A stretch of 39,279 nucleotides of DNA from Bacteroidaceae bacterium. Its GTDB lineage: Bacteria > Bacteroidota > Bacteroidia > Bacteroidales > Bacteroidaceae. Made by a program: the position numbers and the translations under genes. The DNA is taken from NCBI GenBank assembly GCA_017649485.1, contig JAGCGS010000052.1:1-39279 (forward strand), read 5' to 3'. The notes under the pieces were generated by a model that saw only the letters and a program-made list of their open reading frames with translations, made no database searches and was not told the origin of the DNA. The stretch's first letter is position 1; each line of letters opens with the position of its first letter. Positions 8,783-38,800 of this stretch are shown in pieces.

Positions 8783-8787
8783 AAAAT

Positions 8788-9611: not shown

Positions 9612-9735
9612 GTATAGATAAAACTTTTCATCCACAAAGATAAAAAATTTTTACCAAAGCATGAGCGATTTCTAACTACAACACGAAGAAATGAAAATAA
9701 AAGCGAATGTTCATAATTTGACGAACAACGAATGA

Positions 9736-10962: not shown

Positions 10963-10980
10963 AGTTTCTATTATTACCTT

Positions 10981-10988
10981 CAAAAATA
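10981..10988 (-). promoter_or_regulatory. -7 element of a probable promoter for the GH76 gene
   Basis: The minus strand reads TATTTTTG here, a full TAnnTTTG match. The expected -33 position has only a weak TTTCTG. Transcription would start around 10974, about a dozen bases before the GH76 ATG. Confidence 0.4.
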
Positions 10989-11035: not shown

Positions 11036-11404
11036 TTAGCAGCACCCATCACCATCAGCTTTCTCTGCCAAGTCAGAGAAGAATGCACCGAATAGGGTCT
11101 TAGCCAATGCCCAGTTAGGGCGATTGATGCAATACTTCACCTTAGGAGCCTCTATTTCTCCCTGAATCAGGCCTGCCTCTTTTAACTCTTTGAGATGCTG
11201 TGAAACAGTAGCCTTAGCTATAGGAAGTTCTTCATGGATGGCTCCAAAATAGCATTGTTTGCGCTTGGCTAAGAAGTGCAGGATAGCAATACGTGTAGGA
11301 TGTCCCATCGCCTTAGCGAAGCGTGCCAGTTTTTCTTCTCTGGCACGCTCCTGCTCAGGTGTTAATATTGGGTTATAGAAATATTTCTTTTTTTCTTCTT
11401 CCAT
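11036..11404 (-). CDS. ArsR-family winged-helix transcriptional regulator
   Basis: A 122-residue small DNA-binding repressor-type protein. The ArsR winged helix-turn-helix is visible from AKAMGHPTRIAILHFLA through the recognition helix ATVSQHLKELKEAGLI to the wing GEIEAPKVKYCINR. Cysteines occur at KQCYF, KYC and a C-terminal GDGCC, so metal or redox sensing is possible but no classic ArsR CxC metal box is present. It is the last gene of the long minus-strand cluster, 45 bases after a secreted beta-propeller gene, with no terminator visible between them. It may therefore regulate the cluster or its own operon (inference). Confidence 0.88.
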   Translation of the reverse strand: MEEEKKKYFYNPILTPEQERAREEKLARFAKAMGHPTRIAILHFLAKRKQCYFGAIHEELPIAKATVSQHLKELKEAGLIQGEIEAPKVKYCINRPNWALAKTLFGAFFSDLAEKADGDGCC

Positions 11405-11449
11405 ATTAAGGCTTTAACGAAGACAAGTAATGTTGAAAAACAACCTAAA

Positions 11450-12715
11450 TTACTTAATTGTATAAGCTTGTAGAGCTGAGCCGTGACGCACATACAATAC
11501 ACCATTGTTGATGACCAAGTGTGCCCAATACGGTCCCTCACCCTTAGAGATGCGGAACTCACTGACTATGTTCAGTTCGTTGCCTGGCTGAGCCAAACCT
11601 ACAAAACCTCGACGCTCGTCATAGAAATACAACATGCCATCGGCACTAATAGTAGAGCCTTTGCCCTTACCACCCTTCCAAGCAGTATTATAGATGGTCT
11701 TACCGTCTTTTACATTCACAGCCACCCAGTTGCCATTAGTATTGTTAATCCAGTTGGAACCGTAAAGCACTCCATTAAGAAGCACATAACCACCATGATG
11801 GGTACTCAGATCATTGTTTTTCCAAGCTAAGGTAACACTCTTCATGTCATCGGCCAACTTCAATGCTGTTGTATTAATACCATAGCCTTGCGAGAACACC
11901 AGTATGCCATTCACATCATCAAACACAGGACCATTGGGGGCGATGTTCTCTCTGGAGGTGCCTTGTACCCAATCTTTGGTAGCCCATTGCACCTCTCCGT
12001 TTGCAGGGTCAATGCCATAATAATAATTGCAGGTACCACCTACAATTTGATGCTTGCCTTTGTAGATAATCAAAGTTGGCTGTGTATAATTACGATTGTC
12101 GTTCAAAGGACGTGACTTCCAAATTTCCTTGCCAGTTTCTTTGTCAAGTGCTACGACAGTGGTCTGATTACCTCCAGGAGAATAAATCACCTTATTTTCA
12201 AACACCAAAGGGCATTCAGCTGTACCCCAGTTGCCAGTCTTTGAACCATAGGTGTTAAAACCATCTACTCGCCAGACAATCTTGCCATCAGCAATATTGA
12301 TGCAGGCAATCTCACCCATACCACTTATCACGTAAGCCTTGCCATTGTCAATGGTGGGTGTAGTACGAGTCTCAGGATAATTCTGGCTGAATGGTTTGCC
12401 ATAAACAGTAGTATAGAGCTTCTTGCCATCTAATGAGAATGCCATGAAGGTTTCCTGCTTCTCATCTTCAGTCATACCAGTGATGTAGAGGTGGTCACCC
12501 ACAATTACAGGACTTGAATAGCCCTTACCAATAGTCAGGTCTTCCCACAGCATCTGTGGACCCTCTGCTGGCCATTGCTTCATCAGCCCCTTTTCAGCTG
12601 GATAGAGTCCATCGCGATTAGGGCCACGGAAACCATTAAAATTGTTTTGCGCAGATGCGCCTATGGCTATCATAGCCAAAATAGCCATACTTAACAGCTT
12701 CATCTTCATATTCAT
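11450..12715 (-). CDS. secreted PQQ-like beta-propeller protein (FRG family), tandem copy A
   Basis: A 421-residue exported beta-propeller. A Sec signal (MKLLSMAILAMIAIGASAQ) precedes an N-terminal FRGPNRDG motif and then PQQ-like blades with repeats such as 'GKAYVISGMGEIACINIADGKIVW', 'VVALDKETGKEIW' and 'NGVLYVRHGSALQAYTIK'. The fold matches COG1520/PQQ_2-type propellers. The vicinal-cysteine pair of true quinoprotein dehydrogenases is absent, so PQQ binding is not expected. It is clearly a duplicate of the adjacent upstream copy, from the signal peptide to the near-identical last 30 residues. Starts at 12715, 12709 or 12703 are all possible. Function is unknown; context suggests an extracytoplasmic part of the redox cluster. 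Confidence 0.85.
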   Translation of the reverse strand: MNMKMKLLSMAILAMIAIGASAQNNFNGFRGPNRDGLYPAEKGLMKQWPAEGPQMLWEDLTIGKGYSSPVIVGDHLYITGMTEDEKQETFMAFSLDGKKLYTTVYGKPFSQNYPETRTTPTIDNGKAYVISGMGEIACINIADGKIVWRVDGFNTYGSKTGNWGTAECPLVFENKVIYSPGGNQTTVVALDKETGKEIWKSRPLNDNRNYTQPTLIIYKGKHQIVGGTCNYYYGIDPANGEVQWATKDWVQGTSRENIAPNGPVFDDVNGILVFSQGYGINTTALKLADDMKSVTLAWKNNDLSTHHGGYVLLNGVLYGSNWINNTNGNWVAVNVKDGKTIYNTAWKGGKGKGSTISADGMLYFYDERRGFVGLAQPGNELNIVSEFRISKGEGPYWAHLVINNGVLYVRHGSALQAYTIK

Positions 12716-12726
12716 ATTAATTATAG

Positions 12727-13983
12727 TTATTTTATTCTATAAGCTTGCAAGGCTGATCCATGTCGAACATACAGCACACCATTGTTGATAACCAGATGCG
12801 CCCAATATGGACCCTCGCCCTTAGTGATGCGGAACTCGCTCACCACATTAAAGTCATTGCCTGGCTGAACAAGACCAACAAAACCACGACGCTCATCGTA
12901 AGCATAAAGCATACCGTCGGCAGTGATGATAGATCCTTTACCCTTGCCACCCTTCCAAGCGGTATTGTAAATGGTCTTACCAGTATTCCAGTCGATAGCC
13001 AACCAGTTGCCACTGGTGTTGTTGATCCAGTTTGAACCGTAAATGACACCGTTTAATAATACATAACCACCATGATGAGTATCCAAATCATCCGTTTTCC
13101 AAGCTTTTGTAACACCGGTCAAGGTGTCATTGAGTTTCACTAAATAGCCACCAGTGTCATAACCTTGTGAGAAGAACAATGCACCATCCTTAAACAAAGG
13201 AGCGTTAGGCGCGATATTCTCGTAGGTATTAGGACTTGGCCAGTCGGTAAACGACCACTCCACAGCACCCGTCTCTGGATTCACACCAAAAAGGACTTCT
13301 GCTAAAGAACCGACAATCTGACGCTTGCCTTTCCACTCAATCATAATAGGAGAAACATACGCTCTGTGAGCCTTCAGAGAAGTAGTTTTCCAAATCTCCT
13401 TGCCTGTTTCCTTATCCAAAGCCACCATAGAGGTCTGGCTACCACCAGGGGTATAAATGACCTTGTTGTCATATACCAACGGACTTTCTGCTGTTCCCCA
13501 GTGGCCAGTGACACTACTATAAGTAGATTTGCCTGCCACCTTCCAAATAATCTTTCCATCAGCACAATTGATGCAAACCACATCACCTGAGCCACTGATG
13601 ACATAAGCCTTACCATCAACAATAGTGGGAGTTGTGCGGGTTTCGGGATATGCCTCATTCCAAGGTGCGCTGTAAGAGATAGTGTAAATAATTTTGCCAT
13701 CTAATGACAAAGCTGAGAATGTTTCCTGCTTCTCATCCTCGGTCATACCGGTGATATAGATGCGGTCGCCCACGATAACAGGACTTGAATAGCCTTTACC
13801 TATTTGCAGGTTTTCCCAAAGCATTTGTGGACCCTCTGCAGGCCATTGTTTCAACAAACCTTTCTCATTGACGTAGTTTCCGTCGTGATTTTGACTGCCT
13901 CGAAAGGCATTAACATTGTTCTGCGCCGAAGCACCTATGGCTACCATAGCCAGAAATACCATACTTACTAATTTTTCCTTCAT
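12727..13983 (-). CDS. secreted PQQ-like beta-propeller protein (FRG family), tandem copy B
   Basis: A 418-residue paralogue of the next gene downstream, 11 bases away. It shares the signal peptide pattern (...VAIGASAQNN), an FRGSQNHDG start, 'WPAEGPQMLWE', 'IGKGYSSPVIVGD', 'YITGMTEDEKQETF', and a near-identical C-terminal end (GEGPYWAHL...VRHGSALQAY). The middle blades differ more, for example in the 'FTDWPSPNTYENIAPNAP' region. The pattern indicates tandem duplication with divergence of the central blades. It lies 12 bases after the GT4 glycosyltransferase, clearly in the same operon. No catalytic residues are recognisable; a scaffold or ligand-binding role outside the inner membrane is inferred. 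Confidence 0.85.
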   Translation of the reverse strand: MKEKLVSMVFLAMVAIGASAQNNVNAFRGSQNHDGNYVNEKGLLKQWPAEGPQMLWENLQIGKGYSSPVIVGDRIYITGMTEDEKQETFSALSLDGKIIYTISYSAPWNEAYPETRTTPTIVDGKAYVISGSGDVVCINCADGKIIWKVAGKSTYSSVTGHWGTAESPLVYDNKVIYTPGGSQTSMVALDKETGKEIWKTTSLKAHRAYVSPIMIEWKGKRQIVGSLAEVLFGVNPETGAVEWSFTDWPSPNTYENIAPNAPLFKDGALFFSQGYDTGGYLVKLNDTLTGVTKAWKTDDLDTHHGGYVLLNGVIYGSNWINNTSGNWLAIDWNTGKTIYNTAWKGGKGKGSIITADGMLYAYDERRGFVGLVQPGNDFNVVSEFRITKGEGPYWAHLVINNGVLYVRHGSALQAYRIK

Positions 13984-13995
13984 ATTAATATTATT

Positions 13996-15264
13996 TTAGT
14001 TATTTATCAATTCATTATATAGTTTAAGCAATTCATTTGCCACATTCCTGTCATCATAGCGTTCCTTAGCCATTGTCAATGCATGTGCTTTGAATTGATT
14101 AAACAGGTGATGGTCAGTGAGCATCTTTTCCAAAGCATCAGCCAAATGTTGAGGGTCGTTGGGCTCATATATGAGTCCTGCATTACCCACAATCTCGGCA
14201 AACGAGCCAGTGTTTGGCTCAACAACTGGCCTCCCAGCAGCAAAAGCTTCACATAAATACAACCCTACCCCTTCCTTAAAGCGCAGCGGCACAGAAAGAA
14301 CAGATATTTTTCGGTAGAAGTCGGCATGTTCGTCCATATCGTAAGTTTCTTCTATCACCACATCGGCGGTATAAGGCGCCAATATTCGTTTCACCTGTCT
14401 CACTAATTTCTTATCAGGACTCATATATCCACCACCTATTCGAAGTTTAAGGTTGGGAATTGTGTCCCGTTTTTTTAGCAGCACAAAGGCATCGGCCAGT
14501 ATATCTAATCCATCGAGTTTATTCATGCGATAGAAGAATCCTATAGTAGGGTCAGCTGGATATTCATCTGTTTGATATTTTTTCAAATCAATTCCTGGGT
14601 ATATCACTTTCACACGCCCTAACTGTGGCAACTTCCTCTCGACTATCTGCCGATAGTAATAGCTTGTAGTGATAAAGTGGTCAACATATTGGGCATTATC
14701 CAACACACTTTGCCAAGCTTTACCAATAAACTCGCTCTTCAAACTGTCAATCCACACTTCCTCATCTTGGAGGGAGCAAACAATTGGTATTTCCGTTTCT
14801 TGCTTCAACTTTTTGGCAATACCCAATAGCAATGAAGTAGATAGCTGTATGATATCGGGCTTCTCGGTTTGTTTTACCCAGTCAATCAACATCCTCACAT
14901 TATCTTCGAAAGCTAATCCCTCACCCGATATCATACTGAGAGTCATACCTTCCATGCCCTCAGCTGAGGTAGTACCAGATAAAGAAGACGCCAAATCAAG
15001 CAATGTTTCAGAACCCAACATACGCTTCATCCATGATGGCATTTTACGGTTGCCAAACATTTTCTGCTCCACATAATAGGTTGTGGCAGGAAAGAACAAA
15101 GGCACATCACACTGAAATGTATTGCGTTTCAACGGCAGGTACAGGGGCATGATAATAACCTCGTGTCCAGCCTTGCGCAATGATAATGCCTGCAGGTTGT
15201 CACGGAAGCAGTTTCCACAATAGTAGGAATCGCCCGACCCTGGTTGTATAAACAGAACTTTCAT
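13996..15264 (-). CDS. GT4-family glycosyltransferase with N-terminal CGNCFRDN motif
   Basis: A 422-residue GT-B glycosyltransferase of family GT4. The C-terminal nucleotide-sugar site shows the EX7E motif in KEGVGLYLCEA, followed by 'AAGRPVVEPNTGSFAEIV'. The N-terminal Rossmann domain starts 'MKVLFIQPGSGDSYYCGNCFRDN'. As I recall, this short cysteine motif (CGxCxRDN) marks a GT4 subgroup also seen in Planctomycetes. The enzyme would act at the cytoplasmic side of the membrane on an unknown acceptor, perhaps a lipid. The ATG overlaps the TGA of the upstream permease by 4 bases, which links it to the ABC transporter. Donor and acceptor are not predictable from sequence. Confidence 0.88.
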   Translation of the reverse strand: MKVLFIQPGSGDSYYCGNCFRDNLQALSLRKAGHEVIIMPLYLPLKRNTFQCDVPLFFPATTYYVEQKMFGNRKMPSWMKRMLGSETLLDLASSLSGTTSAEGMEGMTLSMISGEGLAFEDNVRMLIDWVKQTEKPDIIQLSTSLLLGIAKKLKQETEIPIVCSLQDEEVWIDSLKSEFIGKAWQSVLDNAQYVDHFITTSYYYRQIVERKLPQLGRVKVIYPGIDLKKYQTDEYPADPTIGFFYRMNKLDGLDILADAFVLLKKRDTIPNLKLRIGGGYMSPDKKLVRQVKRILAPYTADVVIEETYDMDEHADFYRKISVLSVPLRFKEGVGLYLCEAFAAGRPVVEPNTGSFAEIVGNAGLIYEPNDPQHLADALEKMLTDHHLFNQFKAHALTMAKERYDDRNVANELLKLYNELINN

Positions 15265-16484
15265 TCTATCTTTCTTCTCACTATTCTTCTAACAAAATAA
15301 ATCACACCAGCTACCAGTAAAGCGGTATATGCCAAGCAGAGGAGCCAAGTGCCATAACTAACATTGGCAAAGCTTGTGCATACACTCAGTATGGCACCTG
15401 TTACGCCTATAAAAATAGCATACAGGGGCACCCTGAGATGCTCGTCAACCAACAGCTTTTCGATGATGAGCGACGGATAGCCCAGCATCTGGTAGAGGCG
15501 AATATCCTCGTCCTTCATCGCCAAATTCTTGCGGATGACAATAACAAAGCTGAACAAACCGACCAACAAACCGATGCCTCCCAAAGTGAGGAATATTGAC
15601 AAGTAGGTATCGGTCACCTGATAGAACTGGCGTAATCGTTCACCCGTTGGCATCACCCTCACTCCATACTCGTTCAGAGCAGTGGCCAAGATAGTCTTGG
15701 TTGGCTCTACTTCATGGTCATCCACCTTTACCAAGACTACTTCGGAGCCTGTTATCTCAGGCCATATTTCGGTAAAATATTCCTTGTCAATCACCACATT
15801 ACCTTGCAATATGGTATTGGGCAACGTACCTGCCAACAAGAGTTTTACTTCTTGCCCATGGGCATCTTGGTAATGCAAGGTATCGCCCAAGCTCATCATC
15901 AAGCCCCAAGTCAATACGGTTTCGTCAACATAACAGGGAACAATATTCCCATTGGAATGATATCCCTCTATATTTTCTTCTTTAGTTTTGTAATGGTCAA
16001 TGGCAAATGCTTGCTCGAACAGCTGCATATCTACTCCCAACACGGTGGGAGTGGAAACCTTATTGAGATTCAAGCAGGAAGCATCGTCAGCTGTATAACG
16101 CAGGAATTGCAGGAAGACTGCATCTTCTGGCAAATCCATTAGCGAGAGCTGGCGCCTACCCTCGTCGGTATTCATATCATAATAAACGGGCACGGTGGTT
16201 TCCATCCACAAACTATACCCCCCAGTACCTTGTACCAACTGTGAGGAATCGCCAAATCCCTTGCGGTTCAAGCCCACAGCAAAGACGATGAATACGCCCA
16301 AAGCAAGGGTTAGGAAGGATACAACAGCTTGTTTTCGGTTAGCATAGAGGGAACTCCACACCAATTGCTTCCTGTTGTTAGCATTTGGCTTACGACTATT
16401 GACAACGAGGAGGTGCCATCCGAGGTATGACCCTAAGATAAGCCACGCACAACCAATTAATATGAACAATACTACCTTCAGCAT
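15261..16484 (-). CDS. FtsX/MacB-type ABC transporter permease, second subunit
   Basis: A 407-residue integral membrane protein. Two N-terminal helices ('VVLFILIGCAWLILGSYLGWHLL' and 'VVSFLTLALGVFIVFAVG') are followed by a periplasmic domain of about 170 residues. Three C-terminal helices then form an FtsX-like core ('GGIGLLVGLFSFVIVIRKNL', then the last two hydrophobic stretches). It lies 3 bases downstream of another FtsX-type permease and overlaps the GT4 start by 4 bases. With its partner (591 residues) it resembles one long FtsX-type permease split in two. Such transporters work as mechanotransmission or lipoprotein/lipid-extraction systems and do not form ordinary channels; the substrate is unknown. 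Confidence 0.85.
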   Translation of the reverse strand: MLKVVLFILIGCAWLILGSYLGWHLLVVNSRKPNANNRKQLVWSSLYANRKQAVVSFLTLALGVFIVFAVGLNRKGFGDSSQLVQGTGGYSLWMETTVPVYYDMNTDEGRRQLSLMDLPEDAVFLQFLRYTADDASCLNLNKVSTPTVLGVDMQLFEQAFAIDHYKTKEENIEGYHSNGNIVPCYVDETVLTWGLMMSLGDTLHYQDAHGQEVKLLLAGTLPNTILQGNVVIDKEYFTEIWPEITGSEVVLVKVDDHEVEPTKTILATALNEYGVRVMPTGERLRQFYQVTDTYLSIFLTLGGIGLLVGLFSFVIVIRKNLAMKDEDIRLYQMLGYPSLIIEKLLVDEHLRVPLYAIFIGVTGAILSVCTSFANVSYGTWLLCLAYTALLVAGVIYFVRRIVRRKIE

Positions 16485-16487
16485 AAC

Positions 16488-18263
16488 TCATTGTTTATTA
16501 TTTACTACACCCTTAATGGCCCACCACAACACACACGATGCCATGAGCAGACTTACTATAATGCCGATGACCAGTGTATAAAGACTGATAGAAACATGAA
16601 AACCATCTGTTTGGGTGGCTCCTTGCCAAACATTGCCCAAAAGGAACATGATAAGCCAAGTATAAAGCACACCTACCACCAAACCAATCAACACTGCTAT
16701 CAATAAGGTGGGACAAGCTTCACGATATAACATGGTGCGTATGCGTCTATCAGACCAACCCAAGGATTGCAACAAGTGGGTTTCTCCTTGTCGTTGCCAG
16801 TACATTTCAGACAAAGGACTGTACATCAACAATAAAGCCGAAACGATGATGAAGAAGCCAAGAGCCAGGAACAAGCCTGCAAAATCTACACCATTCATAG
16901 CACTATACAAACCTGTCTCTCGGGGATGCACAACCTGTATCCCACACATAGTAGCATCAATACCCGAAAAATCTACATCGTTATTGCTTACCCTGATAGC
17001 CGTTGCCGAACCGAACACCGTTTTCCAATCATTAATAACGGCATTATAAGGAACTATGGCTTTAGGCGTTGAACGATAATCTGTCCAATATTGTTCATCT
17101 TCATCGGTAATCAGATCCATATCAATAGGCAGGTCGCTATCCCACTCGGTGCAACGCTCTACATCGGTCAGTCCTGGGAATTCAGCACTAAGTGTGCCGT
17201 CAGCTACCCACTCCTGCAGCGGGATGATGGCAGAAACCCTTAACTGCATAGAGTCGGTTTCCAAACGCTTCAGTCCTTTCATCTTGAAATAGCTAATGCT
17301 AATTGCATCACCTACCTTTGCCCCTATTCTTCTTGCTGTATAGTCAGAAAGGATTATCTCATCATCTGCCAATGGTTCTCCTCTATAACTATCCATTGCT
17401 GTAACGAATGAATAGGGCACCGACTTTCCATCCAAACGGATTGAGTTGGCTAAATAGGAATAGAGACGATTAGGATTCTGATTATGAGTGCATAAGAAAA
17501 CTATCAGGTCATCGGGCATAAATACACGTTCGGTAATGATTTCGGTACAATCATCTTTCTTGACCGACTTAATGCCTGCCATTGACACTTGCCAAGCTTG
17601 GTTGATGTCTGGCATTTCAACCTTTTGTGACGAAAGGATGACATTTACCTTGTCGCCCGTTTCCAACAAGTCGTTGAGCATCTCACGGTTGACAAAGATG
17701 TTTAGTGGAATAATCTGTTCATTCCGCAAACTGAGGTTGCCCCCATCTGAGGCATCAATCACCCCAGCACAGGATAGACGCAAACTGGCGGTATAGTTCT
17801 GGGTAACAAACAATGACCCAGAAGGTATTAAGCCATTTTTCGCCAAACGAAGCACAATGTCGTCACCAGCCAATACGCCTGCTTCTTTGGAGAGTTGCTC
17901 ATTGATAATGGCATCGCCATCAGCCAACGAGATACCATTTCTTAATCTATCGACACCCCATACATTGACGGGTATCAACTGACCGTTTACCTGCATAAAG
18001 CCATCGGTCATAACAGCTCCCCAGGCGCCATCTACAAGGGCATCTACCATACTGGCATTCATATAGTCGGTACTATTGAATATCACTGACTCGGTATCGC
18101 CCAAACGATCGGTCACCCTCTTTACCAACGTCATACGCACAGAATCACCCACCATCAAGCTACCAGTTACAACGGCCACCATAATGACAGTAGCCAGCGC
18201 TATCAATGCATAGAAGCGTCGGTAATAGCTGATATTGCCCTGTATGAGACGTTGATTGTTCAT
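16488..18263 (-). CDS. FtsX/MacB-type ABC transporter permease, first subunit
   Basis: A 591-residue permease. One helix near the N terminus ('FYALIALATVIMVAVVTGSLMVGDSVR') precedes a large extracytoplasmic domain (about residues 45-460). Three C-terminal helices follow ('AGLFLALGFFIIVSALLLMYS', 'LLIAVLIGLVVGVLYTWLIMFLLG', 'LVIGIIVSLLMASCVLWWAI'). The start 'NNQRLIQGNISYYRR' is typical of DUF214/FtsX proteins. It overlaps the ATPase stop by 4 bases (ATGA), so the two are translationally coupled. A partner permease follows after 3 bases. Together they form a type VII-like ABC system that probably moves a lipid-linked or lipoprotein substrate; this is family knowledge, not seen in the sequence. 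Confidence 0.87.
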   Translation of the reverse strand: MNNQRLIQGNISYYRRFYALIALATVIMVAVVTGSLMVGDSVRMTLVKRVTDRLGDTESVIFNSTDYMNASMVDALVDGAWGAVMTDGFMQVNGQLIPVNVWGVDRLRNGISLADGDAIINEQLSKEAGVLAGDDIVLRLAKNGLIPSGSLFVTQNYTASLRLSCAGVIDASDGGNLSLRNEQIIPLNIFVNREMLNDLLETGDKVNVILSSQKVEMPDINQAWQVSMAGIKSVKKDDCTEIITERVFMPDDLIVFLCTHNQNPNRLYSYLANSIRLDGKSVPYSFVTAMDSYRGEPLADDEIILSDYTARRIGAKVGDAISISYFKMKGLKRLETDSMQLRVSAIIPLQEWVADGTLSAEFPGLTDVERCTEWDSDLPIDMDLITDEDEQYWTDYRSTPKAIVPYNAVINDWKTVFGSATAIRVSNNDVDFSGIDATMCGIQVVHPRETGLYSAMNGVDFAGLFLALGFFIIVSALLLMYSPLSEMYWQRQGETHLLQSLGWSDRRIRTMLYREACPTLLIAVLIGLVVGVLYTWLIMFLLGNVWQGATQTDGFHVSISLYTLVIGIIVSLLMASCVLWWAIKGVVNNKQ

Positions 18264-18925
18264 GCTATCTTGCCTTCATTCAACAGTAAAACTCTATCGG
18301 CCACAGATGACACCTCATCAGAGTGGGTCACCATCACGATAGTGGTATGCAATTCTTTATTGACATCGGTCAACAGTTGTGCAATATTGATGGCATTCTC
18401 TCTGTCAAGTTGACCTGTAGGTTCATCGGCCAACAATACTGATGGTTTCATAACCAACGCCCGACAAACTGCTACCCTACTGGCCTCACCACCTGAAAGG
18501 GTGTTGGGATACTGGTGAGCCAACGACGAGATATGGGTAAGTTCCATCAACTTCTGAGCGTAAGCTATTTCTTCAGCCGAACTGCTTGACTGGGTTGCCA
18601 AAGTAGGTAGCAGGATATTCTGCAACACATCAAACTGAGGCATCAGTCGGTGATCTTGAAACACAAAACCTATCTTGGCATTGCGGATGGATGGCAAATC
18701 TACACCCATGGCAGTCAAATCTACGCCATCCAACTTATATGTACCGCCATCTGGTGGAAGCAATGTACCCAAGATGCGCAACAAGGTGGTTTTACCTGCA
18801 CCAGAGGCACCTTTGATGGCTACAAACTCCCCATCGGCCACATGCAGCGACAAACCTCGCAACACATGGTTCTCGTGGTTTTCTCCGTCCCGAAATCGCT
18901 TATTTATGTCTATCAGTTCTATCAT
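18260..18925 (-). CDS. ABC transporter ATP-binding protein (LolD/MacB type)
   Basis: A 221-residue ABC ATPase. Walker A is GASGAGKTTLL, the signature is LSGGEASRVAVCRAL, Walker B is VLLADEPTGQLD and the H-loop is VMVTHSDE. A FQDHRLMPQFD Q-loop and overall length match the LolD/FtsE/MacB group that drives FtsX-type permeases. It overlaps the 591-residue permease by 4 bases and starts 6 bases after the membrane-anchored propeller gene, so it belongs to the same operon. It would hydrolyse ATP at the inner face of the cytoplasmic membrane. Confidence 0.93.
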   Translation of the reverse strand: MIELIDINKRFRDGENHENHVLRGLSLHVADGEFVAIKGASGAGKTTLLRILGTLLPPDGGTYKLDGVDLTAMGVDLPSIRNAKIGFVFQDHRLMPQFDVLQNILLPTLATQSSSSAEEIAYAQKLMELTHISSLAHQYPNTLSGGEASRVAVCRALVMKPSVLLADEPTGQLDRENAINIAQLLTDVNKELHTTIVMVTHSDEVSSVADRVLLLNEGKIA

Positions 18926-18931
18926 ATTTGT

Positions 18932-23473: not shown

Positions 23474-23475
23474 AA

Positions 23476-25323: not shown

Positions 25324-25334
25324 GTATATCGTAA

Positions 25335-27148: not shown

Positions 27149-27171
27149 AATGGTCAATTGTCAATTATCAA
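27149..27171. repeat. TTGACAATTGACC short repeat between two cluster genes
   Basis: The minus strand reads ATTTGATAATTGACAATTGACC between the propeller-like gene and the polyferredoxin. It supplies the stop codon of the first and ends at the start codon of the second. It belongs to the same family as the tracts at 1512, 8788, 20002 and 35042. Confidence 0.65.
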
Positions 27172-28223: not shown

Positions 28224-28233
28224 TATTAAAACC

Positions 28234-29664: not shown

Positions 29665-29673
29665 CTATTGTTT

Positions 29674-30885: not shown

Positions 30886-30898
30886 AATAATGACTCGT

Positions 30899-32626: not shown

Positions 32627-33492
32627 ATTGATCCTAATGCCAATAATCCGTAAAATACATATTCCACATCACACTGTTTATCCAGCAAGGTGGCCATAAA
32701 ACCTCCGTTGTCGGCCAGATGAGCCTCTATAAAATCAGCAGGGTTCACCACAGGTTTCTTTCCGTAGTTTTTCAATGCGAACAAAGCTGTGGCAGTTGAG
32801 AGCAAATCAGGCATGGGCGCGTCTGCTTCCGCCTTAAATCCACCGTTATCTTCCTGCATCGCCCGCAATGCCTCTACTTCCTCATAGTCATATACCGCCA
32901 ACTGTGCCTTGATCATCAGCGCAGCTGCTGTAGCATTGGCAGAAGCCGTCTCCTGATGCTGCAGGTTCGAATACCCACCGCCTTTCACCTGATAATCCTG
33001 CAAATCTATCAGCGTCTGCTTTTTACCGATCAACCGGGCATTGTTATCCTCCAAAAGCGACAACCAGAAGAACTGGTTATAAGGATTATGCCTGTCGCCG
33101 TGAGGGAACTCTTGAAATGTGTCGAGCGAACGCAAATTGTCAACGCTCCACACACTGAGCCACATGCCCACAATACCCTGCGACACCAACTTATAAAGCA
33201 ACTTACACTTCATGAAAGCCATATAGTGAATCAAATCCAGCTCATCAGGATTGAATTGTTTCAGATATGCCGACATCTTATTCGAATCGAGCCTTACGCC
33301 CAATACATAAGACACCAGCCAACCGAACACCGTATAATACAAATCCTCCTGACCTCCTTTATTCACAAAGGCACCATTCTCTGTCTGTTGCGACAACACA
33401 AAGGCAGTTATCTTACTGCGTGTCTCGGGTGTCAAGCGTTTCTTGGCACGTCCCAAGGCAGACATCATCTTAGTGGAAATGCTTGTTTTCAT
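32623..33492 (-). CDS. prenyltransferase/squalene-cyclase repeat protein, possible partner of the DxDD cyclase
   Basis: A 289-residue all-helical repeat protein. Units such as QTENGAFVNKGGQ, EDNGGFKAEADAP and LADNGGFMATLL match the alpha/alpha-barrel repeats of protein prenyltransferase beta subunits and cyclases. No DxDD motif is present, and the zinc ligands of protein prenyltransferases are not evident, so it may be a non-catalytic or modified half that pairs with the larger cyclase. The ATGA overlap with that gene supports a stable 1:1 partnership. The gene starts 4 bases after the DUF116-polyprenyl synthase fusion. No membrane helix or signal peptide is visible. Confidence 0.75.
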   Translation of the reverse strand: MKTSISTKMMSALGRAKKRLTPETRSKITAFVLSQQTENGAFVNKGGQEDLYYTVFGWLVSYVLGVRLDSNKMSAYLKQFNPDELDLIHYMAFMKCKLLYKLVSQGIVGMWLSVWSVDNLRSLDTFQEFPHGDRHNPYNQFFWLSLLEDNNARLIGKKQTLIDLQDYQVKGGGYSNLQHQETASANATAAALMIKAQLAVYDYEEVEALRAMQEDNGGFKAEADAPMPDLLSTATALFALKNYGKKPVVNPADFIEAHLADNGGFMATLLDKQCDVEYVFYGLLALGSI

Positions 33493-33496
33493 AACT

Positions 33497-35074
33497 TTAT
33501 CCTATTATACGCTCAGTAATCCTAAACAAAAGTCTTTTCAGCTCCACCTGCTTCACATTCGCCAACGCTGCCAATGCCTGCTGGTGGTAATCCTCAGCCA
33601 ATGCCCGAGCCTTTTCCAGGGCTTCGTCTAAAATCGCCTTGTTGCCTGGCTGACTGAAAAACTCTTTCATGTTTTGTGTCGCAAATAGCTGCTGCAGGAA
33701 GTCCTTATCAGGATGCTGCTCGCATACCAATGCCAACACTGCCGAAGGACGGATCTCTATCGGCTCATCATTGTCGAAATCCTGTATATCATCCAGCAGC
33801 TGATAAGCAATGCCCAATGCCTTGGAATAAGCATGGAACACTTGCCGCAACTCCTTATCATCACCTGCACAGATTAAGCCCAACATCAGGGAAACCTCAA
33901 AGGCAGGCACCGTCTTGTTGCAGAAGATATCCAACACAAAATCGAGTGTCAGTGGCTGTGGAGCCTTGCTCCAATCCAACTCCAACCCTTGTCCTTTGCA
34001 TAAAGCCACATGCGCCTCGGCAATAGCAGCTATCAACCCTTTTGACTCACAACCGCCCAAGATACGATAACCCTGCCCTAACAGATAATCACCCACATTG
34101 ATGGCCAACGGCACACCATACACCTTATGGATGGTTGGCTTGCCATAACGCTCATCATCATTATCCTGTATATCATCGTGCACCAGCGAAGCCTTGTGGA
34201 AACACTCTACGGCAATAGCTGCACGCCTCACATCGTCCGAAGCACGATCCTCATTGGTCAAGGCGGTATAAACAGCAGCCACCAGATAAGGCCTCCATCG
34301 CTTGCCGTCACCACTCAACCAATCCAATGCCGCGATAGAAGTATAGTCAGCCGATTCGGGGAAAAACTCCTTCAAGGCATCTTTCTCAAACCAAGCCTTC
34401 GATTGTGCTCGCAACCCATCATAATCCATGAAGGTGGCATCTTTGTCCGACCTCATGCTCATCAGCTGCATCACATAGCCGTAATCCACCTGCGTATCCT
34501 TACATCCGTCGTAGTTCAAAGGCACAGCTATACCAGGCACCGCATTGCGTATCAGCAACGGAAATGCTTTCTCCAACGAGTTGAGACAGCTTACGCCAAT
34601 CACGGCATCCACCACTCCATTTTGTATCAAACCCACCACAGATGTAAATCCCTCTGCCACAATACTCATCACGCCCAGTTCATCTGCCTTCTCCTGCAAA
34701 TCGGGTATCGGACAGTGCCCGCATCTATGACACAACAACCCCAAGTCATCTATTTCTGCCTGGCATTTGCCAGAGTTACTCAGACACTTGGGCAACAACA
34801 GAATACGCCTATCGAACGGTATGGAAGCAATGGTATCTTTCCACACCTGATTGTGTATTTCCACCATCATCCAACCCCTATAGGCAGTATCTATATGATA
34901 CTGATTTATCAGTTCATCAGCCACCGTCTCCAGATTACTCATCGACAAAGGGGGTACCACCGATAGCGAACTTACCATTTCACCTATCAGGTTCCTTATC
35001 TCAGTTCTTTCCTTGAAAGTCTGTGGCGCAATATGTTTAGTATCAATCTTCAATTTTACATTTTCAATTATCAA
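33497..35074 (-). CDS. DUF116-polyprenyl diphosphate synthase fusion
   Basis: A 525-residue fusion (start uncertain). Residues about 60-210 look like DUF116, with the cysteine-rich segment CLSNSGKCQAEIDDLG and CHRCGHC, probably an Fe-S site. Residues about 255-525 are a trans-isoprenyl diphosphate synthase: GKRWRP, the first Asp-rich motif DDIQD at 300-304, K in GKPTIHK, and the second DDIQD at 428-432. It would elongate isoprenoid diphosphates; chain length cannot be read reliably. The frame opens with TTG in a TTGAAGATTGA repeat tract. A TTG at 35053 or the ATG at 34978 are alternatives. The gene precedes two cyclase-like genes, which gives an isoprenoid-supply role. The fusion is unusual among IspA/IspB-type enzymes. 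Confidence 0.82.
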   Translation of the reverse strand: MIIENVKLKIDTKHIAPQTFKERTEIRNLIGEMVSSLSVVPPLSMSNLETVADELINQYHIDTAYRGWMMVEIHNQVWKDTIASIPFDRRILLLPKCLSNSGKCQAEIDDLGLLCHRCGHCPIPDLQEKADELGVMSIVAEGFTSVVGLIQNGVVDAVIGVSCLNSLEKAFPLLIRNAVPGIAVPLNYDGCKDTQVDYGYVMQLMSMRSDKDATFMDYDGLRAQSKAWFEKDALKEFFPESADYTSIAALDWLSGDGKRWRPYLVAAVYTALTNEDRASDDVRRAAIAVECFHKASLVHDDIQDNDDERYGKPTIHKVYGVPLAINVGDYLLGQGYRILGGCESKGLIAAIAEAHVALCKGQGLELDWSKAPQPLTLDFVLDIFCNKTVPAFEVSLMLGLICAGDDKELRQVFHAYSKALGIAYQLLDDIQDFDNDEPIEIRPSAVLALVCEQHPDKDFLQQLFATQNMKEFFSQPGNKAILDEALEKARALAEDYHQQALAALANVKQVELKRLLFRITERIIG

Positions 35075-35098
35075 TCTTCAATCTGCAATCTTCAATCA
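35042..35098. repeat. TTGAAGATTGA-type short repeat tract at a gene junction
   Basis: The minus strand carries GATTGAAGATTGCAGATTGA, GATAATTGAAAATG and AAATTGAAGATTGATAC between the radical SAM gene and the DUF116 fusion. It abuts the stop codon of the former and runs into the likely 5' end of the latter, which makes the downstream start codon hard to assign. Confidence 0.75.
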
Positions 35099-36313
35099 TC
35101 CGTAAGCTCCGAATCCGAAGAAATACTTTTTCTTCAATATCTTATAAAACACATTCTGCTCAGGTATCAGATCCTCTTTCATATCATGACCAGGTACCGG
35201 GCACATCGCTTCATATTCTTGAGCAACCGTAGCTCGGGTGGTAGTATCCACTGCCCCCTGTGCCTGCAAGAACTCCCGCATCAGTTGGGGATTCTCCATG
35301 ATGATACACCCACGCGTATCCTCAGCCGTTATCTTGCGCAAACCCGCCAAGAACTCCGATTTATTAAACACCTCCGTCAAGTTGGAAGCATCCTCGTTCA
35401 ACCACTCTTTTGCCAACTGCATAGGTGGACAGAATTCCACTGCCCCACTGGGGGAGATATGGTGACTCATGCCCGTTGCTGCCGGACACATCGCCTTGCC
35501 CTTATCATCCCAATAAGTGTCGATGATAAACAAGGGAGCGTCTTTTCGTTGTTCGACAATGAACGAACGTAATGAGTGTATTTGTTCCTTCGTTAAGCAG
35601 TTATCGGAATTGGGTTGTGCCCCAACGGGACGATAGATATAGTACCACAGATACATAGCTCCCTCACGGGCGATATCCTCAATGTATTTCCTGTTTACCA
35701 GATCATTGTAATTACTCCTGCAGATACTTGCCGCCGCACCGAATATCAAACCTGCCTTTCTGCATGCCCTCACGCCTCTGAGTGTACGCTCATACACATC
35801 ATCACGCTGCCTTCTTTTGTCGCTCTCTTCCTTCAAGCCCTCAATGCTAATCAAAGGCGTTACATTGCCCAACTTACGCAATTTTTGAGCCACCTCGTCG
35901 GTGAGCAACGTTCCGTTGGTAAACAACTGGAAGTAGCAGTCACTATGCTTCTCCATCACCTCAAAAAGCCCTTTATACATCAAAGGCTCTCCACCTAATA
36001 AGCCAAAGAAATACGAGCCGTTTTTCTTCGACTGTGTGATAATGCCGTCAAGCTGTTCGTTGGTAAGTTGTTTCTTGCCACCTTGCGACACCCAACAACC
36101 TGAGCATCCCAAGTTGCATGTTTCAGTTAGCGAAACCATCACAAAAGCTGGGAAGAAAGGCTTTCCCTTTGCCTGGCGGCGCTCGAAAGCAGCCATGTTT
36201 ACCAGATTTCGCCATCCGAAGTTATAGCAGAATTTCCAAAGTAATCGCGGCGATGTCAAGGTAAACACCCTGCCCGCAGCCTTAAATGTTGCTATGTAGT
36301 CATGTAACGTCAT
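35096..36313 (-). CDS. radical SAM enzyme with SPASM-like C-terminal cysteines
   Basis: A 405-residue radical SAM protein. The cluster motif is CNLGCSGC (CxxxCxxC) at about residues 66-73, followed by GGEPLM, which contacts SAM. C-terminal cysteines (KAMCPAATGMSH, EFCPPMQL, RGCIIM, AMCPVPGHD) suggest an auxiliary cluster of SPASM type. In overall order it resembles HpnH-like and peptide-modifying enzymes but no exact family was identified. Context (polyprenyl synthase, cyclases, ferredoxin) favours modification of an isoprenoid or other small molecule over a peptide, because no small precursor-peptide gene was seen. It overlaps the ferredoxin gene by 4 bases, which could supply its electrons. 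Confidence 0.85.
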   Translation of the reverse strand: MTLHDYIATFKAAGRVFTLTSPRLLWKFCYNFGWRNLVNMAAFERRQAKGKPFFPAFVMVSLTETCNLGCSGCWVSQGGKKQLTNEQLDGIITQSKKNGSYFFGLLGGEPLMYKGLFEVMEKHSDCYFQLFTNGTLLTDEVAQKLRKLGNVTPLISIEGLKEESDKRRQRDDVYERTLRGVRACRKAGLIFGAAASICRSNYNDLVNRKYIEDIAREGAMYLWYYIYRPVGAQPNSDNCLTKEQIHSLRSFIVEQRKDAPLFIIDTYWDDKGKAMCPAATGMSHHISPSGAVEFCPPMQLAKEWLNEDASNLTEVFNKSEFLAGLRKITAEDTRGCIIMENPQLMREFLQAQGAVDTTTRATVAQEYEAMCPVPGHDMKEDLIPEQNVFYKILKKKYFFGFGAYG

Positions 36314-37014
36314 TTCTTAACCTTATTAATAACAAAGGCACTTGCCCTTCTGTTTGCCAATCTTTCGCGCAATGCCTGGTTATACAATGCTTTCGTATCT
36401 ACACGTATTGCCATATTGCCTTCTTCCTCCAAACCGCCGTTGATGGGCGACTGGTCATACTTGGGGAAAATCACAGCCGTCTTGGGGCAGGTTCTCGCAC
36501 AAGCAGGGCAATTGTTCTTGCAGTTTTCAGGATGCACCACCCTCACCTGCTTATCAACCACCGTATATACGCCAAACAAGCAGAAATCGTGGCATTTACG
36601 GCAATTAACACATCGTTCGGCATCGATTACAGGAAACCATGCGTCTTCACCAAACTCAGGTTCCATCGCCTTTATCTTGTCAGCAAACGCCTTGTCTGCC
36701 TCCACGAGTGCCACATCAGCGCCCATCTCCTTCAGCAGTGCGGCAGGTTCATTCTTCCGCAAATCATATAGCTTTTCAGCTTCATATCCTCTGTATCTCA
36801 GCAGGTTTCTCACGGCACGCTCATGACAGGCAATAACCGTTGTGCCAGCCACCTCTGCCAACCTTTTCGAGTTTTGCTCTACCATGCGGCACAAGTCTTC
36901 CTCCACATTCACCTCATATCCTTGCTTTGCCAATGCCGTTGCCAGCTCAGCCACCTGCTTCTTGTCAATGAAGCTTCTCGAAGCACATGCGCATATAGTT
37001 ATCTTTTTCTCCAT
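36310..37014 (-). CDS. cysteine-rich ferredoxin-domain protein
   Basis: A 234-residue protein. The N-terminal half, starting MEKKITICACASRS, has an alpha/beta look with cysteines at CAC, LCRMV and IACHE, faintly like heterodisulfide-reductase-type domains. The C-terminal half contains a ferredoxin pair: CVNCRKCHDFC and CKNNCPACARTCP, enough for two 4Fe-4S clusters. The tail 'ALYNQALRERLANRR' is basic and helical. ATG 37014 lies 2 bases after the stop of the response regulator; the longer start at 37032 would overlap it. Its stop overlaps the radical SAM start. A role as reductant or partner for that enzyme is inferred. Confidence 0.8.
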   Translation of the reverse strand: MEKKITICACASRSFIDKKQVAELATALAKQGYEVNVEEDLCRMVEQNSKRLAEVAGTTVIACHERAVRNLLRYRGYEAEKLYDLRKNEPAALLKEMGADVALVEADKAFADKIKAMEPEFGEDAWFPVIDAERCVNCRKCHDFCLFGVYTVVDKQVRVVHPENCKNNCPACARTCPKTAVIFPKYDQSPINGGLEEEGNMAIRVDTKALYNQALRERLANRRASAFVINKVKK

Positions 37015-37016
37015 GT

Positions 37017-37766
37017 TTATTTCACAATCCATAACTTAAACTCTGCCGCACGGTTCTTGCTTACATAGATGCGCTCAGGCGTATCCACACCCACACTCAC
37101 CAACAAGCGGCTGTCGAACCAAATAGTGATGTTGGTAATGGCTGATTTTGCCACGACATATTGCTTGTTGGCACGCATAAACTCGTTGGGGTTCAGCTGT
37201 GTCATCAGTTGGTCGAGAGCCATTGTGCAAGGGTAATGCCTGCCATCTTTCAAATAAACTTCCGTATTCTTGTTGGTAGAATAGAAACAAGCCACATCCT
37301 TCACCTCGATGGGCATGAGCTTGTCACGGAATGGTATCAGCAAGCGCGACTTGTATTCCTGCACAACGGCCAACTGCTTAAGCAACTGAAGATACTGATC
37401 AGTGTCCTGTTGGTTCAGCTTACTGAACTTCAGCAAAGCTTGACGCAACTCCTGCTCCTTGATGGGTTTCAGCAGATAGTCAATGCTATTCACCTTGAAG
37501 GCATCAATGGCATACTGGTCGTAGGCGGTGGTGAATATGATAGGTATTTCCACCTCCATTTGTTGGAAGATGGCGAACGAAGATCCGTCGCTCAGGTGTA
37601 TGTCCATAAAAATCAAGTCGGGACGCTCGTTGCTCTTCAACCAGCGTACCGTTTGCTGCACACTTTCCGTATTGGCCATCACCATGATGGCTGGGTCAAT
37701 CTCATTCAGCATCTCCACCAGGTTCTCGGCAGCAGCTGTCTCGTCTTCAACTATCAGTACCTTCAT
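37017..37766 (-). CDS. LytTR-family response regulator
   Basis: A 249-residue two-component regulator. The receiver domain (residues 1-120) has the acidic pair VEDE, the phospho-acceptor Asp in FMDIHL, Thr in TTAYD and Lys in LLKP. The LytTR DNA-binding domain follows (about 145-249: 'LLIPFRDKLMPIEVKDVACF', 'FMRANKQYVVAKSAI'). LytTR proteins bind pairs of short direct repeats upstream of target promoters. The ATG at 37766 is the true start, since the longer frame starts at a TTG. It sits 11 bases after the kinase gene and starts the Fe-S/radical SAM group, so it probably regulates the cluster. Confidence 0.93.
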   Translation of the reverse strand: MKVLIVEDETAAAENLVEMLNEIDPAIMVMANTESVQQTVRWLKSNERPDLIFMDIHLSDGSSFAIFQQMEVEIPIIFTTAYDQYAIDAFKVNSIDYLLKPIKEQELRQALLKFSKLNQQDTDQYLQLLKQLAVVQEYKSRLLIPFRDKLMPIEVKDVACFYSTNKNTEVYLKDGRHYPCTMALDQLMTQLNPNEFMRANKQYVVAKSAITNITIWFDSRLLVSVGVDTPERIYVSKNRAAEFKLWIVK

Positions 37767-37777
37767 CAATTATCCAT

Positions 37778-38800
37778 TTAGTCACCCAATGGCAGTTTCA
37801 CCACATAGGTTGCATCATCATTCTTCACCTCAATATGCTTGTCAAGCATCAACTGGAATCGGGCGTCGAGGTTCTTCAAGCCTGTACCGTTGGTAGCGGC
37901 AGGCGACAGCTTCGGGTAAACAGGGTTGCTCACTGTCAGCTCGTGCTCACCGCTCATACTTATGCTGATGTTCATCAAGTGCTCACTGTCAATCATGTTG
38001 TGCGTGGTGGCATTCTCCAACAGAGGCAACAGCGACAAAACGGGCAGTTGCAAATCGCGCTTATCGTCAGGCACATCCACATGAATCTTCAACTTGGCAC
38101 CATAGCGCACCTGCATCACATGGCTGAACGCGTCAACAAATTTCAGTTCTTCATCCAGTGTCACGAGAGTGCGGCTTCCGCTCTGTAGAATGTAGCGGAA
38201 GATGTCCGACAGCTCGTTGATGTAATTCAGGGTGTCCTCATCGTTCTTCTTTCTCACGAGCGATGAAATACCATTCAGTGAGTTGAAGAAGAAGTGAGGG
38301 TTTATCTGGTTTGTGAGTGCGTTGCATCGGCTTTCCAGATTCTCGATCTGCAGCCGTTCTATTTCTTTTTCTCTTTTCAGTTGATAGTCAAACAATACAT
38401 TAATATAGCTGATGAAAGCGGTGATTAGCCACACCACGATAAATTGGAAGAACAGGATGCTGAAGAAATGGTCGTAGTCAACCGTCAGGAATTTGATGGC
38501 TTCATACACCACAAAACCTATCAGCGTCAGCAGCAGGTTAATCCACGCGTGCCGCATAAACCTGATGTCGGCAATCTTCTTGAAGTCATACTTGAGTATC
38601 AACCAAATCAACACCCAGAAGTATGCCAAACGGAAGAAGAAGAACACGAAGTAAGCCATCTGTTCATCCGGCTTGATGAACATATCGAGGTCGCACATCA
38701 GCCAGGCGTTGTTCGGGTATGCCACGAAGAACGCACTGATGAGTGCCACCAGCCAAGGTTTCTTCCTAATCAGCGAAATGTCTTTATCAAAAGTTCCCAT
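37778..38800 (-). CDS. LytS/YehU-type sensor histidine kinase
   Basis: A 340-residue kinase of the His_kinase (PF06580) family. Four hydrophobic helices span about residues 13-30, 48-65, 80-100 and 112-135. A short coiled linker follows ('LKREKEIERLQIENLESR'). The phospho-acceptor region NPHFFFNSLNGISSL and an N-box (LPLLENATTHN) lie in the ATPase part. There is no large extracytoplasmic sensor, so the signal may be read within the membrane, for example a lipid or redox state (inference). The pair with the LytTR regulator is the first pair of genes of the cluster. A weak -7-like TTACTTTG lies at 38830-38837 on the minus strand, about 30 bases upstream of the start codon. Confidence 0.92.
   Translation of the reverse strand: MGTFDKDISLIRKKPWLVALISAFFVAYPNNAWLMCDLDMFIKPDEQMAYFVFFFFRLAYFWVLIWLILKYDFKKIADIRFMRHAWINLLLTLIGFVVYEAIKFLTVDYDHFFSILFFQFIVVWLITAFISYINVLFDYQLKREKEIERLQIENLESRCNALTNQINPHFFFNSLNGISSLVRKKNDEDTLNYINELSDIFRYILQSGSRTLVTLDEELKFVDAFSHVMQVRYGAKLKIHVDVPDDKRDLQLPVLSLLPLLENATTHNMIDSEHLMNISISMSGEHELTVSNPVYPKLSPAATNGTGLKNLDARFQLMLDKHIEVKNDDATYVVKLPLGD

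Follow-up and report, generated by a model that had tools for sequence, protein, structure and literature searches.

A predicted Bfu-type redox operon with exported propellers, adjoined by a separable putative polyprenyl lipid module, in Bacteroidales

Electron-bifurcating enzymes of the Bfu family, which comprises HydABC and its relatives, are defined by domains in their BfuB and BfuC subunits, as set out in the main text of Schut et al. 2022 (PMC9304861). The same domain set, with the SLBB domain of BfuB scoring just under its cut-off, ligands of the B1, B2, B3, B4 and C1 types, the marker histidine of the family and a BfuA-like partner encoded next door are also found in the gene cluster analysed here, which lies at positions 11036 to 38800 of a 39,279-nucleotide contig from a Bacteroidaceae bacterium (JAGCGS010000052.1; this whole stretch of DNA is called the window below). 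It differs from the described family in that BfuC and BfuB form one polypeptide and that the third substrate would lie outside the cytoplasm; the main text of PMC9304861 mentions neither PQQ, NapH or the periplasm nor fused or fusion proteins. We regard the redox core as a putative novel Bfu variant, next to which a lipid module is encoded. The source is a draft genome of 2.6 Mb in 69 contigs (82.6% complete), of which the window is contig 60.

Other parts of the cluster have described relatives of their own. The Stn or Nfn-Bfu transhydrogenase (StnABC, PMC10482914) provides the best matches both to the BfuA-like subunit (9bov_A, 8oh5_C and NfnA) and to the core (NfnB, 9bov_B and 8oh5_B). StnC is described there as combining a NuoG-like part with a GltD-like NADPH domain and feeding a HydBC-like core, whereas the NAD(P)-binding segment is absent from the homologue at one related locus (L139) and the whole GltD-like part from that of the window. 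Like NapGH-type quinol dehydrogenases and NosR, the cluster pairs an exported 4Fe-4S protein with a membrane protein in which CxxxCP occurs twice, but its scores lie far under the family cut-offs, a Bfu core adjoins, and no Nap or Nos reductase was seen in the cluster. The propeller PQQ5 has the eight-bladed fold of PQQ_2/BamB-type proteins, YxaL and tetrathionate hydrolase, but a conserved residue set of its own and a place in a redox operon. The cluster's cyclase has the Pfam domains of squalene-hopene cyclase (SHC) and the DxDD motif in common with squalene-hopene and class II (DxDD) terpene cyclases; it differs from these in its length of 575 amino acids, its score against the SHC equivalog TIGR01507 (58 bits, cut-off 431), a genome without a squalene synthase match and the fused DUF116 synthase nearby. 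HpnH and NirJ resemble the cluster in having a radical SAM core clustered with a cyclase, but the protein found here falls below both cut-offs. A literature search of titles and abstract openings, with subscription papers and bioRxiv preprints outside its scope, found no description of the redox operon or of the lipid module.

The redox operon

The redox operon follows the order propeller, NHL protein, NapG, NapH, propeller, BfuCB, BfuA, propeller. In the window its members are, in this order:

28234..29664, minus strand: PQQ5, eight-bladed propeller with an N-terminal hydrophobic anchor (Pfam, alignment, fold comparison)
27168..28223, minus strand: NHL-type propeller with an RK-type signal (alignment, structure model)
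26564..27157, minus strand: NapG-like exported 4Fe-4S protein with a twin-arginine signal (Pfam, family scores, alignment)
25335..26567, minus strand: NapH-like membrane Fe-S protein (Pfam, family scores, hydrophobicity)
23476..25323, minus strand: PQQ4, propeller with N-terminal hydrophobic segments (Pfam)
21080..23494, minus strand: BfuC-BfuB fusion ("NuoEF"), 804 amino acids (Pfam, solved-chain ranking, ligand alignments)
20109..21083, minus strand: BfuA-like Fe-S subunit ("NuoG"), 324 amino acids (Pfam, family scores, structure-chain alignment)
18932..20116, minus strand: PQQ3, ACSF4-type propeller (Pfam)

The fusion at the centre of this operon had been read as NuoEF in an initial annotation made from the sequence of the window, and a NuoE/NuoF-type fusion is indeed real, though the bifurcating (Bfu) type of this protein and of its NuoG-like partner had been overlooked. 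Its layout comprises a NuoE-like domain, a Trx-like 2Fe-2S domain, a 51K FMN/NADH domain, an N3-type cluster, a B2-type site (C642, C680, H729, C734 and C739) and two C-terminal 4Fe-4S clusters. The closest solved chain is NfnB 9n5u (E 3e-204), and 9bov_B, the HoxF/Stn-type 8oh5_B and the HydB chains 7q4v, 8a6t, 7t2r and 7p5h are further top matches; complex I chains rank behind, starting at E 3e-109, and the protein stays under the complex I cut-offs for NuoF (TIGR01959, 476.6 versus 558.65 bits) and NuoE (TIGR01958, 119.9 versus 142.4). With Pfam models that we take to represent the published InterPro domain set of the Bfu family, matches over the cut-off were obtained for PF01512 (148 bits), PF10589 (110 bits), PF00037 (32 bits) and, in the BfuC (NuoE-like) domain, PF01257 (152 bits, cut-off 24.8); the SLBB domain PF10531 reached 25.5 bits (E 1.2e-5) against a cut-off of 27.

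Ligand conservation was read from 25 non-identical fused sequences, that of the window among them and the others from related loci. None of them deviates at the C1, B1, B3/B4, N-terminal and B2 positions, position 680 excepted; this holds for C642, H729, C734 and C739 of the B2 site, and C98, C103, C140 and C144 of the BfuC domain are likewise present throughout. Position 680 is occupied by C (12 sequences), T (7), S (3) or R (3), and the main text of PMC9304861 gives threonine at the equivalent B2 position in about two thirds of BfuB. In alignments to five bifurcating-type chains, HydB and NfnB among them, a His stands opposite H729, and each of C642, C734 and C739 is aligned with Cys; these residues were matched to the residue numbers of PMC9304861 by spacing. 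According to the same main text, the histidine of the B2 cluster is found in virtually all BfuB and is absent from non-bifurcating HydB homologues. On the solved-chain ranking and the B2-type ligands, the "NuoEF" protein is assigned by its sequence as a fused BfuC-BfuB, an electron-bifurcating-type core akin to HydBC and StnAB, and on the same two observations a plain NuoEF of the complex I type was rejected. We infer that the fusion bifurcates electrons and, because the pair that it forms with the NuoG-like protein is of the Bfu type, that NADH is probably joined by reduced ferredoxin as a donor.

The BfuA-like subunit of the window scores over the Pfam cut-offs for PF13510 (2Fe-2S, 46 bits) and PF13459 (4Fe-4S, 26 bits), and its alignment to 9bov_A skips residues 178 to about 541, which is the whole GltD-like FAD/NAD(P) part. 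Because this segment is skipped, the subunit appears to be an Fe-S wire that has no site for NADP, and the missing domain makes NADP+ unlikely as the third substrate. The BfuA of L139 (522 amino acids), which belongs to a redox-only operon, aligns to residues 3-289 and 425-671 of 9bov_A; it skips 290-424, by place the pyridine nucleotide domain, and keeps the FAD-type half. Lengths fall into two groups among 22 homologues including that of the window, 12 at 509-545 and 10 at 321-370 amino acids, and an FAD-type motif (five spellings tried) was found in eight of the 12 long ones.

The predicted relay beyond this core consists of the NapH-like protein, with about 6-7 hydrophobic segments, two CxxxCP motifs and two 4Fe-4S sites, and the NapG-like protein, whose R18, R19 and F21 and Cys ligands are invariant in 18 of 18 sequences. 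The NHL protein carries an invariant GCCNP and, in near relatives, a C-terminal CxxC-x3-C; DUF5711 stays below the Pfam threshold, ScyF NHL matches weakly (27 bits, cut-off 350), and TRIM-type NHL domains match at E 5e-11. Its structure model predicts an NHL-like propeller fold, and a Foldseek search with this model returned chiefly eukaryotic NHL domains, which is uninformative on function. PQQ5 is the propeller with the most conserved residue set, including RNHGxSRT, GQCP and MSHxS. It scores 26.4 bits against the PQQ quinoprotein dehydrogenase model PF01011 (cut-off 26.7). Its fold match is generic, the neighbours by Z score being YxaL (33.5), tetrathionate hydrolase (32.1), BamB (31.7) and L-sorbose dehydrogenase (27.9). 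The scores of the first three are too close for PQQ5 to be assigned as any one of them. As had been stated before, no recognisable terminal oxidoreductase was seen among the 20 of 23 cluster proteins covered by the Pfam scan.

With NapG as its marker, the redox operon occurs in 67 of 393 sampled Bacteroidales genomes, and NapG is present in 57 of the 60 genomes with a fused BfuCB (p = 3e-54); three fused-gene genomes are without a NapG match, and 10 of the 67 NapG genomes are without a fused match at the cut. That cut (E <= 5.4e-246) was set after a natural break in the list was seen, and some fused genes may be missed because only two candidates were scored per genome; G405 was counted as a miss, yet its locus L150 carries a fused gene of 812 amino acids. 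Gene order was tabulated for 21 loci picked from the 67 NapG genomes, all of them outside the family of the window and eight from genomes with the DUF116 synthase, and loci cut at their ends were counted as misses. Here PQQ5 is followed by the NHL protein in 19 loci, NHL by NapG in 19, NapG by NapH in 20, NapH by PQQ4 in 18, PQQ4 by BfuCB in 17, BfuCB by BfuA in 16 and BfuA by PQQ3 in 14. This recurring order in relatives bears out the expectation of synteny across genera, and because of it the cluster is no chance array. In a phylum-wide sample the NapG profile matched only the genome of the window itself (1 of 296), a sample that held few close relatives since the rows shown were mostly of the "same class" level.

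The lipid module and its association with the redox operon

The putative lipid module consists of five genes:

36310..37032, minus strand: two-cluster ferredoxin with an N-terminal Cys-containing domain (Pfam, family scores)
35096..36313, minus strand: radical SAM protein (CxxxCxxC), NirJ/HpnH-like (Pfam; far under the NirJ and HpnH cut-offs)
33497..35074, minus strand: Cys-rich DUF116 fused to a trans-polyprenyl diphosphate synthase (Pfam, family scores, alignment)
32623..33492, minus strand: PT, single-domain prenyltransferase-type protein without DxDD (Pfam; closest solved chain Rab GGTase beta)
30899..32626, minus strand: class II (DxDD) squalene-hopene-cyclase-like protein, 575 amino acids (Pfam, family scores, alignment)

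Across 37 loci (L032-L068), ferredoxin is followed by radical SAM in 33, radical SAM by the DUF116 synthase in 35, the synthase by PT in 35 and PT by the cyclase in 34, with some loci repeated or near-identical (L032/G029, L034/G082, L058/G058, L067/G262, L042/G035 and L038/L039). These ordered loci include Parabacteroides, Tannerella, Bacteroides and Prevotella records and one labelled Eubacteriales (L039). Loci labelled Planctomycetota or Verrucomicrobiota have the synthase (31-43% identity) together with the cyclase, and several also have PT, radical SAM or ferredoxin.

The closest named match of the synthase is Bacteroidaceae-labelled (83% identity). Its polyprenyl synthase domain scores 147 bits against PF00348, and the Asp-rich motifs D300 D301 D304 and D429 D432 are kept in at least 92% of 60 sequences. 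Two cyclase-like proteins had been named in the cluster, but the DxDD motif is present in only one of them: the 575-amino-acid cyclase matches both SHC Pfam domains, carries DxDD as D329-A-D331-D332 with D329, D331 and D332 invariant in 20 of 20 aligned sequences, and has SHC and SQHop proteins of 514-539 amino acids as its nearest solved chains, whereas PT resembles Rab GGTase beta. The radical SAM protein stays under the cut-offs of HpnH (49.6 versus 225 bits) and NirJ2 (79.9 versus 500 bits), and a role in the biosynthesis of heme d1 or pyrroloquinoline quinone was set aside on such scores, among the 25 families listed of 59. A squalene route was likewise rejected, since squalene synthase (PF00494) had no match in the window's own genome, which is 82.6% complete. 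The predicted product of the module is a cyclised polyprenyl compound, probably not derived from squalene.

Some relatives of the module have additional features. In Schlesneria-type Planctomycetota, a gene for a 152-amino-acid protein precedes the ferredoxin (L071 6220-6678, L078 6274-6732, L086 6392-6850), and the protein of L071 is glycine-cleavage H-like (PF01597). In a marine planctomycete (L072, 12390-18248 onward), the cyclase and synthase are followed downstream by PT, an ABC/FtsX pair and a gene that by sequence reading resembles an FAD-dependent reductase. A second, incomplete module with ferredoxin, radical SAM and synthase and without PT or cyclase lies at L051 1882-5315, in the same Prevotellaceae-labelled genome that has the fuller L057. 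Chloroflexi/Dehalococcoidia loci (L101, L110) that hold genes for a polyprenyl synthase, a radical SAM protein and an SHC-like protein, with identities of 20-29%, may be a distant cousin.

At a cut of E <= 1e-40, the DUF116/polyprenyl synthase occurs in 17 of the 393 Bacteroidales genomes, of which 15 also carry NapG (p = 7e-11) and 14 the BfuCB fusion (p = 4e-10), in line with the co-occurrence of fusion and synthase that had been anticipated. Conversely, 52 of the 67 NapG genomes, which is 52 of 376 synthase-free genomes, carry NapG without the synthase. Because the synthase is mostly accompanied by NapG and NapG is often found without the synthase, the cluster is two separable modules with a strong, one-sided association. 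The two adjoin in Bacteroidaceae-, Tannerellaceae- and Prevotellaceae-labelled records and in G314. In 32 loci the sequence extends 900 bases or more past the cyclase; among these, the next match to a query gene is a propeller in 30; the exceptions are L061, where the propeller lies beyond three other genes, and L065, where no propeller was seen (L046, L047 and L051 have no cyclase match, L048 and L055 no room after it). Any part that the lipid may play in the redox reaction is an association only.

Remaining genes and flanks of the cluster

The cluster as a whole comprises 23 open reading frames, all on the minus strand, from a LytS/LytTR pair to an ArsR gene, which agrees with the earlier count of about 22 same-strand genes with tiny gaps or overlaps. 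Intergenic spacings range from -19 to +45 bases (from the ArsR end: 45, 11, 12, -4, 3, -4, 6, -8, -4, -19, 11, -4, 10, 10, 9, 13, -4, 4, 21, -4, -16 and 8). The genes outside the two lists above are:

37778..38800, minus strand: LytS-type histidine kinase (sequence reading and homologues in relatives)
37017..37769, minus strand: LytTR-type response regulator (sequence reading; precedes the lipid module also in G170)
29674..30885, minus strand: PQQ6, FRG-type propeller with a signal-like N-terminus (Pfam)
18260..18925, minus strand: ABC ATPase (Pfam)
16488..18263, minus strand: FtsX-type permease A (Pfam)
15261..16484, minus strand: FtsX-type permease B (position and hydrophobic pattern; no Pfam match)
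13996..15264, minus strand: GT4 glycosyltransferase with a conserved N-terminal CxxC (Pfam)
12727..13983, minus strand: PQQ2, FRG-type propeller with a signal-like N-terminus (sequence reading and homologues in relatives)
11450..12715, minus strand: PQQ1, FRG-type propeller with a signal-like N-terminus (Pfam)
11036..11404, minus strand: ArsR-family regulator, last gene of the cluster, with CC at its C-terminus (Pfam; adjoins PQQ1 also in L154 and L169)

Most parts named in the initial annotation were confirmed by Pfam and NCBIfam. Pfam backs ArsR, GT4, the ABC ATPase, FtsX (one of the two permeases), five PQQ_2 propellers, the SHC-like cyclase, the PF00432-type protein, the fusion of DUF116 and polyprenyl synthase, radical SAM, the ferredoxins, the NapH-like and NapG-like Fe-S proteins and the NuoE/NuoF-type fusion. 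The identities of the three proteins left out of the Pfam scan (PQQ2, LytTR and LytS) come from sequence reading and homologues in relatives. Of the 21 NapG loci read in other families, 11 have GT4 following PQQ3; its N-terminal YCxNCxRD motif is conserved in 11 aligned sequences including that of the window and seems unusual for GT4. Permease A is a single gene of 1033-1057 amino acids in L153, L154, L158 and L163.

Beyond ArsR, at 7697-9635, the window encodes a GTPase of the CobW/COG0523 type (PF02492) next to an aquaporin of the MIP family (PF00230), a pair that also adjoins the module in L049, L061, L064 and L154. A low-molecular-weight phosphatase/ArsC-like gene (PF01451) with a signal-like N-terminus lies at L154 2221-2742. 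Two further lineages have arsenic-type genes, named by sequence reading, next to the cluster: permease and ArsC-like genes at L132 803-2654, a locus that also has CobW, and ArsR, thioredoxin-like, CcdA-like and permease genes at L056 1657-5175. The same-strand flanks of the cluster in the window further hold an alkaline-phosphatase-like protein (6386-7651) and a GH76-type protein (9736-10983).

Proposed electron route, rival explanations and significance

We consider it somewhat probable that a Bfu core and a NapH/NapG relay serve the exported propellers, with the lipid module alongside. NADH and reduced ferredoxin would be merged (confurcation) at the BfuCB core, and electrons would pass through BfuA, as an Fe-S wire that has lost its NADP site, to NapH in the membrane, NapG in the periplasm and finally the propellers. 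If electrons leave the cytoplasm in this way, the "third substrate" of the Bfu enzyme would be outside the membrane, and PQQ5, with the NHL protein, would be the likeliest terminal or docking protein. A cyclised polyprenyl compound would be the product of the lipid module and may serve the exported chain as substrate, anchor or membrane partner; in this lineage the modules are welded and probably co-expressed. That electrons of NADH reach exported propellers by way of Fe-S proteins in the membrane had already been suggested, and we judge it plausible. The observed part of the redox model consists of the gene content, the recurring order, the invariant cofactor ligands and the missing NADP domain.

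Several points weigh against this account. The acceptor, the direction of flow and the bifurcating activity are predictions. Twelve of 15 deep relatives have a longer BfuA (509-545 amino acids) than the window, and therefore the electron chain is not identical throughout. Real breaks of the gene order, with unrelated neighbours, occur in L137, L145, L151 and L164, the remaining misses being cut ends. The NapH-like protein reaches 69 bits against a cut-off of 213 for TIGR02163, and a quinone could still be its partner; the conserved residues of PQQ5 may be structural because its fold is generic. As for the lipid, the long contigs of G170 and G325 carry the two modules apart from each other, and G222 and G224 have the synthase but no NapG match, the latter holding lipid genes. 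NapG was also not found (E <= 1e-5) in any of the 16 searched Planctomycetota/Verrucomicrobiota-type genomes that have genes of the lipid module, a set taken from 30 non-Bacteroidales loci (L069-L098) with genome completeness unstated and searched without a positive control there, so that the empty result carries little weight, using a profile that does match the window's own genome. Together with the many NapG genomes that lack the synthase, these cases do not sustain the single redox/terpenoid system that the initial annotation had proposed.

The same separate loci, solitary synthases, synthase-free NapG genomes and planctomycete or verrucomicrobial-type genomes also speak for coincidental neighbours, that is, modules of unrelated function brought together at random or, for niche reasons, through shared regulation. 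This is possible though rather unlikely, given NapG in 15 of the 17 synthase genomes and the adjacency of the modules in records labelled with three families and in G314. A different objection concerns the core, which might be a non-bifurcating NADH dehydrogenase that passes electrons through NapH to menaquinone, with the propellers as assembly or scaffold proteins of the BamB kind. Relatives of NapH and NapG elsewhere act with quinone, and BamB is among the nearest folds to PQQ5. We find this doubtful, because the bifurcation-type ligands including the B2 histidine are invariant in 25 of 25 fused sequences, that histidine being absent from non-bifurcating HydB homologues in the main text of PMC9304861, and because propellers recur within the operon order in other families.

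Electrons could also flow in reverse, from a periplasmic donor oxidised at the propellers to a core that bifurcates them to NAD+ and ferredoxin, with the inward flow charging the membrane. Bfu enzymes are reported as reversible in the main text of PMC9304861 and the parts of the cluster do not fix a direction, but such a donor would presumably have to lie near -400 mV, and the 20 cluster proteins that were scanned showed no catalytic domain of a hydrogenase or formate dehydrogenase; we regard this direction as improbable. Least probable of all is an arsenic- or metal-response island of ArsR, aquaglyceroporin, CobW GTPase and ArsC-like genes in which lipid and propellers are protective. CobW and aquaporin near the module in the window and four other loci, CobW in L132, the ArsC-like genes of L154 and L132 and the ArsR, thioredoxin and permease row of L056 agree with it. 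The other loci are listed without a CobW, aquaporin or ArsC match within their limited flanks, and none was recognised by eye in the redox-operon flanks that were read. With the linked genes near a minority of loci, the island was rejected as the main account and kept as a rival.

Returning to the relay from a Bfu core to exported propellers, a bolder version would have a membrane-spanning Bfu complex, aided by the membrane potential, push electrons of ferredoxin level or lower to the periplasm. PQQ5 and the NHL protein would then form a novel class of terminal oxidoreductases free of heme, molybdenum and known quinones, and in welded lineages the cyclic polyprenyl lipid from the radical SAM/DUF116/cyclase module would be acceptor, anchor or product. 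We think it improbable that all of this holds.

The redox half of the cluster holds more of interest than the initial annotation recognised, with a predicted Bfu-type core tied by gene order and co-occurrence to a membrane and periplasm Fe-S relay and exported propellers across Bacteroidales families. The lipid module, which occurs in records labelled Bacteroidales, Planctomycetota and Verrucomicrobiota, offers another lead that can be tested, and its possible link between DUF116 and a lipoyl carrier, suggested by the glycine-cleavage H-like gene beside the Schlesneria-type module, is worth attention. Parabacteroides records that are not labelled as metagenome-assembled genomes (ZJ-118, PH5-46 and PF5-6) suggest that testable strains exist. 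If the proposed route is true, bifurcation chemistry in anaerobes would extend beyond the cytoplasm, and a redox function could be given to some of the BamB/PQQ-like propellers that are so far unexplained.

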